Origin: Clostridia bacterium
Lineage (GTDB): Bacteria; Bacillota; Clostridia; Monoglobales; Firm-18
Direction: 5' to 3'
DNA: 36,515 bases
Assembly (NCBI GenBank): GCA_017397315.1
Contig: JAFQJA010000015.1
Span: 1-36,515, forward strand
This document shows, piece by piece, positions 9,485-31,357 of this stretch (within the stretch, counting starts at the first letter, position 1; each line of letters begins with the position of its first letter). The translations under genes and the position numbers were made by a program. The notes under the pieces are model-generated. The model ran no database searches. It worked only from the letters and a program-made list of their open reading frames with translations, and was not told the origin of the DNA.

Positions 9485-10837
9485 GTGAAAAAGTTAATAG
9501 CCTTTTTAATTGTGATATTTACTGTAAATATCTGTGTCTTTGCTGACACTTTTGATTTTTCGTTTATAAAAGAAAAAATTGATGTCCCTGACAACTACAC
9601 TGCTTTTACCAGTTGGCATGATATTGCAGATGATGTAAACTACATTTTATCCTGGTCGGGAGACGATGCAGACGGCGGTGTTTTGACCGTTGTTGCGGAC
9701 AGTCAGATGAGAATTATATCATACTCAAAATATGAATACGGAAAGTATATGGGAAATAATAATATATCTTCCATAGACTATAATAAGGCGGTTGCGATTG
9801 CAACTGAATTTATTAAGAAAACAGCACCTGAATTTTATGATAAACTTGTGCTGGTGAAACAAAGCAATTATATTGCAAGAAACAACGAAAATTATGATGT
9901 CTTGTTTTACAGATACGAGAACGATATACCGTGTTACAGCGACTATGTAACAGTATCGGTTAATGCTTATACTAAAGAGCCTGTTGAATACAACGCCCAC
10001 TGGACTGATTGCGAGCGAATTTCGCCGTCATACAGAACAATAGCCAAAAGTAAAGCAAGCGAGTTGTATTTTGAAAAAATAGGTGTAAAACTGTCGGAAA
10101 GTTTTGGCGGACTTATATATTCTATACACAAGGGGAAATACATAAACGCATACACCGGTAATTTAATAAGTTTAAATGAGGCTGATGCAGACGCAGAGGG
10201 AACAGCGGTTTTGTCTTCCGAAGAAGCGTATGTTTTGATGCTTAAGAACTGCAACTTTTCTTTGCAATACATACCGTTTGTTGCAAATGAAAGGATGGAA
10301 TTCCGTGCAGTTTATGGTTTTGAACCTACATATCCGGTAAATATTGATGCTACTTACGGATATTTGTGCACATCAAACGGCGAACCATACAAAATTGCTT
10401 CTGAGAAAAAGTACAACGACATTGACAAATGCAGTTCTAAAAAACAGATAAATACATTGCTGTTAGCCGGTATAACTCCTTTTACCGACGAAAACTTCCT
10501 GCCCGATTGTTATGTTACAAAAACGGAATTTGCAAGAATGATTTTTCTTGCCTTCGGACAAGAAGCAACGGTTTACGGCGAAGAATTTATAACGCACGAG
10601 CAGGCCATAGAGCAGTTAATTAACGCTTTAGGCTATGGAGAAATTGCTTATTTGCCTGACACCTACAGAGTTGATTTTATTGACGGCGAACATATTGCGG
10701 AAGAATTGGTCGGATGCGTATCAATTGCTCAGGGGTTAGAAATAATAAAAGGGAACGCATTTTTGCCTAAAAGCAATTCAACCCGAGCATATTGTACTGA
10801 AATTATTTATAATGCGATTGCCGATAAAGCAGATTAA
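9485..10837 (+). CDS. Secreted protein with YcdB/YcdC-like region and degenerate SLH-like C-terminus
   Basis: The 450-residue product starts at a GTG after AAAGGAGGTG and has a signal peptide (MKK, hydrophobic core 4-18, cleavage near A20). Residues about 40-250 resemble YcdB/YcdC and PepSY-type repeats: WSGDDADGGVLTVVADSQ, KAVAIATEFIKKTAPEFYDKL, then YENDIPCYSDYVTVSVNAYTKEPVEY. Residues about 320-450 look like weak SLH repeats (AGITPFTDENFLPDCYVTKTEFARM, LPKSNSTRAYCTEIIYNAI), which would hold it to the cell wall. The function of YcdB/YcdC domains is not established; a peptidase-inhibitor-like or wall role is often guessed. It sits 17 bases before pncB, presumably cotranscribed, with no obvious functional link. 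Confidence 0.75.
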   Translation: MKKLIAFLIVIFTVNICVFADTFDFSFIKEKIDVPDNYTAFTSWHDIADDVNYILSWSGDDADGGVLTVVADSQMRIISYSKYEYGKYMGNNNISSIDYNKAVAIATEFIKKTAPEFYDKLVLVKQSNYIARNNENYDVLFYRYENDIPCYSDYVTVSVNAYTKEPVEYNAHWTDCERISPSYRTIAKSKASELYFEKIGVKLSESFGGLIYSIHKGKYINAYTGNLISLNEADADAEGTAVLSSEEAYVLMLKNCNFSLQYIPFVANERMEFRAVYGFEPTYPVNIDATYGYLCTSNGEPYKIASEKKYNDIDKCSSKKQINTLLLAGITPFTDENFLPDCYVTKTEFARMIFLAFGQEATVYGEEFITHEQAIEQLINALGYGEIAYLPDTYRVDFIDGEHIAEELVGCVSIAQGLEIIKGNAFLPKSNSTRAYCTEIIYNAIADKAD

Positions 10838-12663: not shown

Positions 12664-12692
12664 TTGACTTTAATACTTTGGTATGATACAAT
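12664..12692 (+). promoter_or_regulatory. Promoter driving the cobalamin riboswitch operon
   Basis: TTGACT (12664-12669), 17 bases, TACAAT (12687-12692). Transcription would start near 12699, just before the 5' arm of the riboswitch closing stem. Confidence 0.7.
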
Positions 12693-12708
12693 TTTGGTAT
12701 TCACAAAA

Positions 12709-12967
12709 TGTGTCTTTTATAGCGTAAGCAGATACTGATCGGCTTCTGGCTATATTAGGTGAAAAGAGAATCAGGTGAGAATCCTGAACGGACCTGCCGC
12801 TGTATGCACCGAAGATTTTATACTTGGCGACGAAAGTCGGTCACTGGGAAACTGGGAAGGCAAAGTATAAAACCGTTTTTTATAAGGTGTGAGTCAGAAG
12901 ACCTGCATTTTCGTTGCTTTTTTGCAATGTTTATTTACTGTGCCGGTAAATAAAGTGGACTGACACA
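12709..12967 (+). ncRNA. Cobalamin (B12) riboswitch
   Basis: The conserved core is present in order: GGTGAAAAGAGAATC with the GGTGAGAATCC hairpin, then CGGACCTGCCGCTGTATGC, GTCACTGGGAAACTGGGAAGG, and the B12 box GTGAGTCAGAAGACCTGC near 12889-12906. A following hairpin, TTTATTTAC / GGTAAATAAA with TGTGCC loop, fits the kissing-loop stem P13. A closing stem TGTGTC (12709-12714) with GACACA (12962-12967) sets the limits. The aptamer is followed at once by an intrinsic terminator (12978-13009), so B12 binding most likely ends transcription of the two surface-protein genes. Whether it prefers adenosyl- or methylcobalamin cannot be told by eye. Confidence 0.95.
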
Positions 12968-12977
12968 GAGAATACAG

Positions 12978-13009
12978 CTGCGTCAATTAATAATTGTCGC
13001 AGTTTTTTT
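12978..13009 (+). terminator. Riboswitch expression-platform terminator
   Basis: The stem pairs CTGCGTCAATT (12978-12988) with AATTGTCGCAG (12992-13002), with one T-T mismatch and an AAT loop, followed by seven T residues. It lies between the aptamer and the SLH-protein gene, as expected for a transcription-attenuating B12 switch. Confidence 0.88.
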
Positions 13010-13041
13010 ATGTAAAGCTGCGAAAAAAGGAGAGGATAAAA

Positions 13042-15243
13042 ATGAAAAAAATTTTTGCAGTTTTACTTATGTTATGCGTATTAACGGGCACATTAAGCGG
13101 CATAACAGTATGGGCAGATGAACTTTCTGAAATCGTAACTGCAATTTCAGGAAGTTACAGCGTACAGGCAACAGAATGGGAACTATTTGATATGGCGGCA
13201 AACGGCATGTCGGGAAATCTTGTTTCTGATGATGTTGTTAATTATCTGAAGAATACGTCTGTCATGGTTCTTGACGAGGACAGGATAACAAATCTTGCTA
13301 AAGCATCCATTATTCTTACGGCTCTTGGCTTTGATGCCACAAAGATTACAGGGGCGAACGGAGAACTTGTAAGTATTATTGATAAAATTGCAGGTTATGA
13401 TGGTTTTGAAGGAATTAATGAGGCGATTTTTTCATTAATTGCTTATGATTGCGGAAACTATACGGTGGAAGCAGGGCTAACGCGAGAAACTATTATAGAT
13501 TACATTTTGGGTCTGGTTAACGCTGATGGCGGTTGGGCGTTAATGGAGGAAGATGAGTTCTCTGATCCGGATGTAACATCTATGGTTATATGGGCTCTTG
13601 CGCCTTATTATGATAGTTATACAGAAATAATTGACAATGCGGTTTTATGTCTCTCAAATATGCAACAAGAGGATGGGCAAGTTGCCTCCTGGGGAACAAA
13701 GAACAGTAATTCCGCAGCGGCAATCATTATAGCTCTTTCTTCTCTTGGAATAGACAGTGACCTCGATGTAAGGTTTATTAAAAATGATATAAGTATATTA
13801 GATGCCTTGTTGTCGTACAAAACTCCCGATAATATGTTCGGATATTCCGATAACACATACAATGGTATGGCAACAGAGCAGGGCTTCCGTGCATTAGTTG
13901 CATATAACAAATATAAGGAAAACGGTGCTTACAACATTTTCTCTATAGATTACGAACCACAGTTGCCCACCCAATCAAAAACAGTTTCATTAAGAATTGA
14001 AGGCGTCAGCGAAAACAAGTTGGATGTAGAAAATGAAACAGTTTCTTTTGACACTCAGAACATAACTGTTGCAGATGTAGTTAAGATTCTTGCGGGTAGC
14101 GATAATTATGTGTGTCAGGACACGGGATATGGTGAGTATTTTTCATCATTGTATGGCGACCAAGAAGGCACATTTAGAATTGACTATGACGGTTGGCAGT
14201 ACAGAGTAAACGGAGAAACACCAAGCGTTGGCGCATCAAGTTACTATGTAAAAGACAATGACGAGATATTGTTTTACTATGGCGGTATGGGTATTGCGTA
14301 CCCAAATTCACCTGTAATTACATATAATAATAAAATTGCTAAAATCGAATTTACTTATGAAAAAGTGTCCTACGGCGGAGCACCCGATTATGCAATGACA
14401 ATTACAACAGAACCTTTAACTGATGCAATTATTACAGTTGATGGTGCTCTTCGATATACAACAGACGAAAACGGTGCAATAGGTATTCCTTATAAAACAC
14501 TTAAAAACGGTATATACAGTTTGCAGGTATCGAAAGCCAATGACGATGGATTGCCTTTGGTTGTTAGATTTGATCCTGACTATGAAATTGAAATTAAACA
14601 CCCTATTTACAATAAACCAACACATCATACGGGCGGTGGTGGAGGTTCTTATGTGAAACCCGCAGAAACAATTAAGGAAGAAGTAAAAGATAAAGTGCAG
14701 AAAACTACATTTGCTGATTTAGGTAATACCCATTGGGCCTATACTTATATTGAGTATTTGACACAAAAAGGTGTTATTAATGGTAAAGAAAATAATAAAT
14801 TCTGTCCCGAAGATAATATTACAAGAGCAGAATATGTAACATTGTTATACAGACTGTCAGGTGAAGAAACTGAAGAAAACTCGGTTGTGTTTGACGATGT
14901 GTCTACAGATGATTGGTATTTTGATGCAGTAATGTGGGCGTTCAACAATAAAATTACAAACGGTGTTAATGCTACAGAATTTTGTCCTGACAACAACATT
15001 ACAAGGGAAGAGATGGCGGTTTTAACCGTAAGATTTTTGGATTATTCAGGCAAAACGCTGACAAACAACGGGCAGGACAAGCAGTTTAACGACCAGGATG
15101 ATATATCGGGCTGGGCAGTAGCTGCAGTCGAAATTTTGCAAAATGCCGAGGTTTTAAACGGAGACGGTGATTATAACTTTAATCCTTTAAACGGTTCAAC
15201 AAGAGCAGAAACTGCCAAAATTCTGTATCTGATAACAAAATAA
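13042..15243 (+). CDS. S-layer-anchored transcobalamin-like corrinoid-binding protein (toroid, DUF4430-like, three SLH)
   Basis: The 733-residue product is exported (signal peptide about 1-25, ending VWA-DE). Residues about 40-300 form alpha-helical repeats of the alpha/alpha-toroid type (for example LGLVNADGGWALMEED, SNMQQEDGQVASWGTK, GMATEQGFRALVAY), as in terpene-cyclase and transcobalamin/intrinsic-factor folds. Residues about 313-411 match the transcobalamin C-terminal-like DUF4430 domain (VADVVKILA, GWQYRVNGETPSVGASSYYVKDNDEILFYYGG). A beta-rich module (420-518) and a GGGGG linker (about 530) lead to three SLH domains (555-605, 616-665, 681-733), which bind secondary wall polymer. AAAAGGAGAGG precedes the ATG at 13042. 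Control by a B12 riboswitch makes corrinoid capture at the cell surface the best reading; binding is inferred. Confidence 0.85.
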   Translation: MKKIFAVLLMLCVLTGTLSGITVWADELSEIVTAISGSYSVQATEWELFDMAANGMSGNLVSDDVVNYLKNTSVMVLDEDRITNLAKASIILTALGFDATKITGANGELVSIIDKIAGYDGFEGINEAIFSLIAYDCGNYTVEAGLTRETIIDYILGLVNADGGWALMEEDEFSDPDVTSMVIWALAPYYDSYTEIIDNAVLCLSNMQQEDGQVASWGTKNSNSAAAIIIALSSLGIDSDLDVRFIKNDISILDALLSYKTPDNMFGYSDNTYNGMATEQGFRALVAYNKYKENGAYNIFSIDYEPQLPTQSKTVSLRIEGVSENKLDVENETVSFDTQNITVADVVKILAGSDNYVCQDTGYGEYFSSLYGDQEGTFRIDYDGWQYRVNGETPSVGASSYYVKDNDEILFYYGGMGIAYPNSPVITYNNKIAKIEFTYEKVSYGGAPDYAMTITTEPLTDAIITVDGALRYTTDENGAIGIPYKTLKNGIYSLQVSKANDDGLPLVVRFDPDYEIEIKHPIYNKPTHHTGGGGGSYVKPAETIKEEVKDKVQKTTFADLGNTHWAYTYIEYLTQKGVINGKENNKFCPEDNITRAEYVTLLYRLSGEETEENSVVFDDVSTDDWYFDAVMWAFNNKITNGVNATEFCPDNNITREEMAVLTVRFLDYSGKTLTNNGQDKQFNDQDDISGWAVAAVEILQNAEVLNGDGDYNFNPLNGSTRAETAKILYLITK

Positions 15244-15252
15244 GGTGAGGTA

Positions 15253-15822
15253 ATGAAAAAGTACATATTATTACTGGTTGTATTTCTTTTTATATCAGGT
15301 TGTGGAAACAAACAGCAACCAATTGTTGAGACTCGGGTTGTAACTCCTGATATAACAGAAACAGAACAACCGCAAAAACAAGAAGTGGTTTCATTACCAT
15401 CAATAGTGACTGAAGAACCTGAGGTACAGCAAGAGGAGCAAAAGACATTATGCAGTCTGACTATTAAATGCAATACTGTATTTGATAATTTAGACAAATT
15501 GAAAAATGGGAAAGCAGAAATTATTCCTCAAAACGGCATTATGTATGAAAATAATAGGTTAACCTTTCAGGAAGGTGAAACGGTACTGGATGTTGTTGTA
15601 CGGGAAACCAAAAACAATAATATTGACATTGATTACACAACTTTTGGTAGTGCGTATATCAGAAGTATAGGAAGTCTGGCAGAGTTCGATTGCGGAGGAC
15701 AATCAGGCTGGCTTTACAGAGTTAACGGAGAAGTCGCAAATCTTGCAACAAATCAATATGTTATAAAAAATGGCGATATTATTGAACTGATTTATTCCTG
15801 CAAATTAGGAAAAGATATATAA
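15253..15822 (+). CDS. Lipoprotein with DUF4430 (transcobalamin C-terminal-like) domain
   Basis: The 189-residue product has a lipoprotein signal with lipobox FISG-C (Cys17), then a Gln/Glu/Pro-rich spacer to about residue 60. It ends in a DUF4430-like domain (about 67-186) with EGETVLDVVV, FDCGGQSGWLYRVNGEVANLATNQYVIKNGDIIELIYS. The same GW-YRVNGE and IKNGD / VKDNDE core occurs in the upstream SLH protein. The gene starts nine bases after that gene's stop with AGGTGAGG as ribosome binding site, so both are in the riboswitch operon. A membrane-bound acceptor that takes corrinoid from the wall-bound partner is the likely role, by inference. It lacks the toroid half of transcobalamin. Confidence 0.85.
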   Translation: MKKYILLLVVFLFISGCGNKQQPIVETRVVTPDITETEQPQKQEVVSLPSIVTEEPEVQQEEQKTLCSLTIKCNTVFDNLDKLKNGKAEIIPQNGIMYENNRLTFQEGETVLDVVVRETKNNNIDIDYTTFGSAYIRSIGSLAEFDCGGQSGWLYRVNGEVANLATNQYVIKNGDIIELIYSCKLGKDI

Positions 15823-15823
15823 A

Positions 15824-15860
15824 AAAAACAAGGTTGCGGCATAGCCGTAACCTTGTTTTT
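15824..15860. terminator. Bidirectional terminator between the B12 operon and radA
   Basis: A 17-bp stem pairs 15824-15840 with 15844-15860 around an ATA loop, with one G-T wobble. T runs lie on both strands. Its right arm overlaps the radA stop. Confidence 0.9.
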
Positions 15861-31204: not shown

Positions 31205-31233
31205 TTGACAAGTAAAATATTTTATGTTAAAAT
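31205..31233 (+). promoter_or_regulatory. Promoter of rplJ-rplL
   Basis: TTGACA (31205-31210), 17 bases, TAAAAT (31228-31233). It lies directly after rplA and drives the L10 leader. Confidence 0.85.
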
Positions 31234-31244
31234 ATTTATGTTTC

Positions 31245-31357
31245 CACAGACAGTCGGCATAAAGGTAAGTCCGACCGAGGAATGTTATTTTACTATAATT
31301 ATGTAATTTAAGGTTCTTTGTCTGTGACGAAGAACCTTTTTAATTTGTTCCTCGTCA
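31245..31357 (+). ncRNA. Ribosomal protein L10 leader with attenuator
   Basis: The leader carries the L10(L12)4-type element (GTCGGCATAAAGGTAAGTCCGAC). CACAGACA (31245-31252) pairs perfectly with TGTCTGTG (31319-31326). A terminator stem, AAGGTTCTT (31310-31318) with AAGAACCTT (31330-31338), ends in a T run. TGACGAAGAAC (31325-31335) can instead pair with GTTCCTCGTCA (31347-31357), which would break that terminator. The aptamer part is known from Firmicutes; the last pairing is my reading. Confidence 0.8.

Follow-up and report, generated by a model that had tools for sequence, protein, structure and literature searches.

An operon of anchored transcobalamin-like proteins behind a cobalamin riboswitch in a gut Clostridia bacterium: a probable capture module for vitamin B12 uptake

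Bacterial proteins resembling the vitamin B12 (cobalamin) carriers of animals were recognized by Burroughs et al. (2007), who described a transcobalamin-like SLBB clade in Gram-positive bacteria and predicted that its exported proteins, which combine a toroid with a β-grasp domain, scavenge B12; the operon often holds a second paralogous SLBB protein and CbiO/CbiQ genes, and the hosts lack B12 synthesis (PMC1796856). Transport itself has been shown for the energy coupling factor (ECF) transporter ECF-CbrT of Lactobacillus delbrueckii (structure 6FNP), which takes up B12 and cobinamide in an ATP-dependent manner (PMC5997447). In Bacteroides, BtuG and BtuH bind B12 at the cell surface, BtuG being a surface-exposed lipoprotein that works with BtuB (PMC6143338, PMC8941943). 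Here we describe a two-gene operon, ORF1–ORF2, in a 36,515-nucleotide stretch of DNA from a Clostridia bacterium (hereafter the window), one whole contig of a 917,067-nt assembly that is 84% complete. We think it likely that ORF1 and ORF2 are surface proteins that capture corrinoid for vitamin B12 uptake in a gut bacterium auxotrophic for B12. The host is a ruminant-gut organism that is apparently unable to make the vitamin; sister sequences, at 88% identity, come from Clostridia metagenome assemblies of goat colon and yak rectum.

The two genes lie on the same strand with a 9-nt intergenic gap, behind the sole cobalamin riboswitch of the assembly. The features of the locus are as follows.

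12664–12692, plus strand: extended −10 promoter-like site, TTGACT-17-TACAAT, the −10 preceded by TG, fitting in position, although the region has 12 such sites where chance predicts 13.2
12713–12922, plus strand: cobalamin riboswitch aptamer, matching RF00174 over its full length (model positions 1–189) at 62 bits (gathering score 31.5, E = 3.5e-13)
12978–13009, plus strand: intrinsic terminator, stem CTGCGTCAATTAATAATTGTCGCAG (12978–13002) followed by T7, −12.9 kcal/mol
12998–13022, plus strand: alternative hairpin CGCAG...CTGCG, possible antiterminator, −12.5 kcal/mol, overlapping the 3′ arm of the terminator
13029–13035, plus strand: ribosome-binding site GGAGAGG, 6 nt ahead of the ATG at 13042
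13042–15243, plus strand: ORF1, 733 aa, exported toroid–DUF4430–SLH protein (SLH, S-layer homology)
13042–13113, plus strand: ORF1 signal peptide, aa 1–24, N-terminus MKKIFAVLLMLCVLTGTLSGITVW judged by eye, with a putative cleavage site
13144–13920, plus strand: α/α toroid, aa 35–293, by family profile (E about 1e-93)
13978–14286, plus strand: transcobalamin-like β-grasp domain DUF4430 of ORF1, Pfam 44.3 bits, above cut-off
14341–14616, plus strand: putative Ig/β-sandwich-like spacer, then a Gly-rich linker, read from the sequence, with no confident Pfam family
14704–15240, plus strand: three SLH domains, 105.6 bits over three stretches, above the Pfam cut-off, with a PDB match to Sap SLH
15253–15822, plus strand: ORF2, 189-aa lipoprotein with lipobox ISGC, a Pro/Glu-rich tether and DUF4430
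15574–15798, plus strand: DUF4430 domain of ORF2, 53–55 bits

The preliminary description of this DNA had proposed that a complete cobalamin riboswitch with a terminator controls both genes, and the covariance match bears this out, the regulation being assigned by family. The aptamer is complete and above its gathering score, and it is followed by an expression platform in which the terminator and a competing hairpin precede the Shine–Dalgarno sequence. These two structures are mutually exclusive, and the hairpin at 12998–13022, which possibly acts as an antiterminator, stops just short of the ribosome-binding site. The layout of aptamer and terminator is kept in a sister species from yak (mean column identity 96%). 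The limits first given for the element, 12664 to 15822, also fit, since they run from the promoter-like site through the final stop codon.

The domain architecture first read for ORF1, a toroid joined to a transcobalamin-like domain and three SLH domains, stands as well. The DUF4430 and SLH domains pass in Pfam; the toroid was recognized by family profile, being sub-threshold in Pfam alone (12.1 bits), where toroids of relatives do pass (33 and 26.9 bits). The frame is open from 12994, with the ATG at 13042 as the likely start, and the core of the protein is 88–90% identical in two other species. Elsewhere in the assembly, neither the toroid nor DUF4430 was found. The companion protein had been called a membrane-anchored transcobalamin-like protein, in agreement with its lipobox and a DUF4430 match of 53.4 bits.

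Set against the clade of Burroughs et al., the locus has the exported transcobalamin-like β-grasp protein, the toroid fusion and the second SLBB paralogue in the operon. The CbiO/CbiQ-like genes, usual in that clade though not obligatory, are missing from it: EcfT/CbiO/CbiQ-like ECF genes are absent from the operon of the window and present in those of relatives. The 2007 account is silent on riboswitches and on SLH or S-layer anchoring, both of which are seen here (PMC1796856). As for the host, we found no CbiC, used as the single marker gene for B12 synthesis, in the incomplete genome of the window (of 17 further genomes that were searched, 16 lack it as well), which to that extent agrees with a clade whose hosts do not make B12. 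The assembly does encode the B12-dependent methionine synthase MetH (787 aa), and the presence of MetH together with the lack of CbiC means that the organism probably needs corrinoid from outside. In a simple motif scan, the genome showed neither a pattern of the CobA/BtuR, MetE or class II NrdJ-like type nor a motif like that of the SLH anchoring enzyme CsaB, both being weak negatives.

Much of the case comes from related genomes. We surveyed 60 of these; the local toroid, DUF4430 and SLH profiles were built from the sequences under study, and since many of the genomes are fragmented, the counts are lower bounds. A cobalamin riboswitch was found in 47, DUF4430 in 53 and a B12-binding domain in 55. 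At 39 of 60 riboswitches, DUF4430 lies on the same strand within 10 kb downstream, where random placement gives an expectation of 0.33 and a maximum of 4 in 2000 trials; related species are not independent, however, and fewer independent events underlie the excess than this comparison implies. For DUF4430 matches in frames of at least 700 aa, the proportion within 10 kb downstream of a cobalamin riboswitch is 37 of 43. The class I aptamer is, moreover, replaced by class II (AdoCbl-II) leaders in G003 (40.9 bits) and G004:C3 (31 bits, E = 2.6e-5), and by a weak one in G005 (21 bits, E = 0.025). The AdoCbl-II leaders before toroid/DUF4430 homologues stand at 2620–2692 of L134 (G003:C142), 5540–5625 of L075 and 5222–5300 of L076; two of the three are under the Rfam gathering score, and a different riboswitch class here has the same output.

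Anchoring is similarly consistent. Across 20 regions of relatives, the window and G003, SLH domains were present in all 17 proteins having both toroid and DUF4430 and in 27 of 28 toroid/DUF4430 proteins of at least 480 aa, and the small DUF4430 proteins carry a lipobox or a hydrophobic N-terminus. The toroid and DUF4430 are often encoded by separate adjacent genes. Some relatives have duplicated the surface system, with a second riboswitch–DUF4430 locus whose frames are of about 1500 aa (G010:C7:81916-83702, G019:C23:1814-3598 and G022:C8:64362-66146). A sequence filed as viral (IMGVR_UViG_2799112468_000001; L161, 4441–6686) has tail/baseplate-like phage genes, then a cobalamin riboswitch (89 bits) preceding a DUF4430 protein with β-propeller-like repeats and a dockerin-like end; this is probably a prophage edge adjoining a host B12 gene, or else cargo.

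The preliminary description had set the pair apart from transport. This holds for the operon of the window, which contains no transporter genes, but not for those of relatives. A frequent gene order there is a large DUF4430–toroid–SLH surface protein, a toroid protein, a membrane-anchored DUF4430 protein, EcfT of the CbiQ family, and a final gene encoding a fused ATPase–ATPase–S component. The S-component profile of these relatives matches CbrT of 6FNP (E = 4.3e-14), CbrT-like S components occur in 41 of the 60 relatives, and DUF4430 lies within 5 kb at 31 of 45 of them. Because the same genes share an operon with EcfT and the CbrT-like fusion, we take the pair to do the capturing for an ECF importer of B12. 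The S component is thus a homologue of CbrT; the arrangement differs in that CbrT relies on a shared ECF module, whereas the relatives have a dedicated ATPase–ATPase–S fusion plus the surface proteins. In G014 (C11:105743-106467, minus strand), a 142-aa DUF4430 frame stands immediately upstream of a CbrT-like S component, which suggests a minimal DUF4430–S pair without a toroid.

The same order recurs on Latilactobacillus curvatus plasmid p1_CACC879 (L202), as toroid surface protein, DUF4430, EcfT, ATPase and CbrT-like S; here the surface protein has an LPXTG sortase anchor in place of SLH, and no RF00174 match was found in the stretch. The surface anchor is therefore exchangeable between SLH and LPXTG. 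In Lentilactobacillus kefiri, a cobalamin riboswitch precedes a DUF5776–toroid–DUF4430 protein adjoining an ECF transporter.

Riboswitch control, together with the position of the relatives' genes beside a B12-type importer, very probably puts the pair at the front of a B12 uptake system, where the vitamin is caught, and from this we infer the following route. With enough cobalamin, the riboswitch would let the terminator form and the genes would be off; when cobalamin is scarce they would be expressed. Exported ORF1, which its SLH domains would fix in the S-layer or wall, would grip a corrinoid between toroid and β-grasp domain. The ligand would then pass to the membrane-tethered ORF2 and on to a membrane importer. 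For most relatives this would be a dedicated ECF transporter whose S component is CbrT-like and whose genes lie in the operon or close to it; in the genus of the window the last step may proceed via the shared ECF module. Such a clamp and hand-over would fit the frequent separation of toroid and DUF4430 into neighbouring genes. It would fit too with a report on human transcobalamin, whose α and β domains, when produced separately, come together on cobalamin, the β domain binding it even by itself (PMC5599065). The surface trap first proposed for ORF1 thus gains support from domains, anchoring and genomic association, with a corrinoid as its putative ligand.

The likeness to animal transcobalamin, intrinsic factor and haptocorrin consists in the arrangement of a toroid plus a β-grasp domain. 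A predicted model of ORF2 (aa 61–189), built from seven sequences, is of medium confidence (predicted local distance difference test (pLDDT) 65, predicted template modelling score 0.63), and its best structural matches are haptocorrin (7e-4), intrinsic factor (1e-3), Ruminococcus gnavus 3u7z and many transcobalamin chains. A DUF4430 profile from the lipoprotein subset has transcobalamin-1/haptocorrin as its second match, a weak one (E = 0.11); a phmmer search of ORF2 against the PDB gave a chance match only. Of the original statement that ORF1 joins the two halves of intrinsic factor, the β half is accordingly supported by the predicted fold, whereas the other half can be recognized as a toroid, its likeness to the α domain being putative. 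The bacterial proteins also differ from the animal carriers in being anchored to the cell.

Several results weigh against the assignment to B12 capture. The best PDB match of the DUF4430 family profile A6 is transcobalamin-2, but weakly (E = 0.036), and the ORF2 fold match depends on a medium-confidence model (pLDDT 65, template modelling score about 0.5). A toroid profile gave no match to the α domain of transcobalamin or intrinsic factor at E up to 10. An AlphaFold model of toroid plus DUF4430 from three sequences failed (pLDDT 34) and was not used. Plasmids of Vescimonas fastidiosa carry toroid and DUF4430 pairs without a cobalamin riboswitch, so the pair alone is no proof of B12. Finally, a CbrT-like S component is absent from the 917,067-nt assembly and from all three genomes of the genus, which are incomplete, and no BtuC-like importer was found above cut-off in the assembly or in two congeners, again all incomplete.

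The first of the alternatives that these results bring up is that cobalamin status does no more than regulate the two proteins, whose ligand would be, for example, a polysaccharide or a different cofactor instead of a corrinoid. The Vescimonas pairs occur in a non-B12 setting, and the toroid is nearer in sequence to squalene cyclases than to transcobalamin: the 17-sequence toroid profile A8 matches squalene–hopene cyclases (2.9e-25) as well as α-2-macroglobulin and prenyltransferase toroids. In addition, for 50 of 107 DUF4430 matches in relatives no class I riboswitch was detected in the 10 kb upstream; some of these 50 lie at the end of a contig or follow a class II leader. Nevertheless, the association with riboswitches is very strong and involves two classes, the genes share an operon with a CbrT-like S component, and cobalamin carriers head the structural matches of the ORF2 domain, so that we consider a non-corrinoid ligand improbable. 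On Vescimonas fastidiosa pMM35_02 (L200, 7675–15068), the DUF4430 and toroid genes stand beside those for a MoxR ATPase, a DUF58 protein, a transglutaminase and dockerin proteins, possibly a second, non-B12 use of the pair.

The missing importer raises the other alternative, namely that the dedicated ECF transporter was lost by genome reduction in this genus, leaving surface proteins that just hold corrinoid or are themselves vanishing. The genomes of the genus are only 0.9–1.2 Mb, and the CbrT-like component was found neither in the three of them nor in the full assembly. The assemblies are, however, just 70–89% complete, so that an importer could have been missed, though this would have had to happen in each of the three. 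Both ORFs, the promoter, aptamer and terminator are intact, the ORF1 core is 88–90% identical in the other species, MetH, which needs cobalamin, is retained and a shared ECF module is present; a remnant or store is therefore a reading to which we give little weight. That module is accompanied by three S components, FolT-like, PanT-like and HmpT-like by best match, the naming drawing on the substrate labels of structures 4rfs and 4hzu. None of the three is CbrT-like. BtuFCD was rejected as the importer of the genus, its BtuC-like FecCD permease being only sub-threshold (24.7 against 26.5 bits). A tentative suggestion, which we hold as possible but doubtful, is that the genus lost a dedicated CbrT-type importer and that trap and lipoprotein now pass corrinoid to the shared ECF module via an S component whose kind is so far not known to carry B12, the surface proteins being the part that gives specificity.

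That ORF1 is an ordinary SLH surface protein behind a riboswitch by chance is scarcely credible: the assembly does hold about 16 further SLH-bearing open frames, but toroid and DUF4430 are not general features of these, the association recurs across genera and families, and chance placement is already contradicted by the random-placement comparison (39 observed, 0.33 expected).

Uptake of B12 by way of anchored capture proteins, which we prefer, belongs to a kind of system known by prediction, its domain logic having been set out by Burroughs et al. What appears to be new is the link to riboswitches of two classes, SLH anchoring as a rule in the order, the CbrT match of the operon S component, and a split of genera by possession of the dedicated importer. 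In the open-licence literature, no paper on DUF4430 concerns bacterial B12 capture by its title and abstract, and none was found that joins B12, riboswitch and S-layer homology. In an order of gut Clostridia, cobalamin riboswitches are linked with a transcobalamin-like trap anchored to the cell, a receiver tethered at the membrane and an ECF importer of CbrT type, which gives a concrete and testable chain from receptor to importer. Its purpose would be comparable to that of BtuG and BtuH, which ORF1 and ORF2 would resemble in role, as accessory B12-binding proteins serving transport in gut bacteria, although BtuG and BtuH are known from Bacteroidetes. The locus also gives a bacterial context to the origin proposed for the B12 carriers of animals.

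Around the pair, the window contains housekeeping genes, assigned by reading (valS, a nicotinate phosphoribosyltransferase gene, rpmB and radA), and the pair therefore has no other B12-related gene beside it. ORF2 and the convergent radA are separated by one further feature.

15829–15859, no strand assigned: terminator-like palindrome, read from the sequence

Two genes upstream of the pair, at 9485–10837, the window encodes another exported protein, with a YcdB/DUF4901 domain and a weak SLH match. An ordinary ribosomal protein L10 leader (RF00557, 54.6 bits) lies at 31226–31351.

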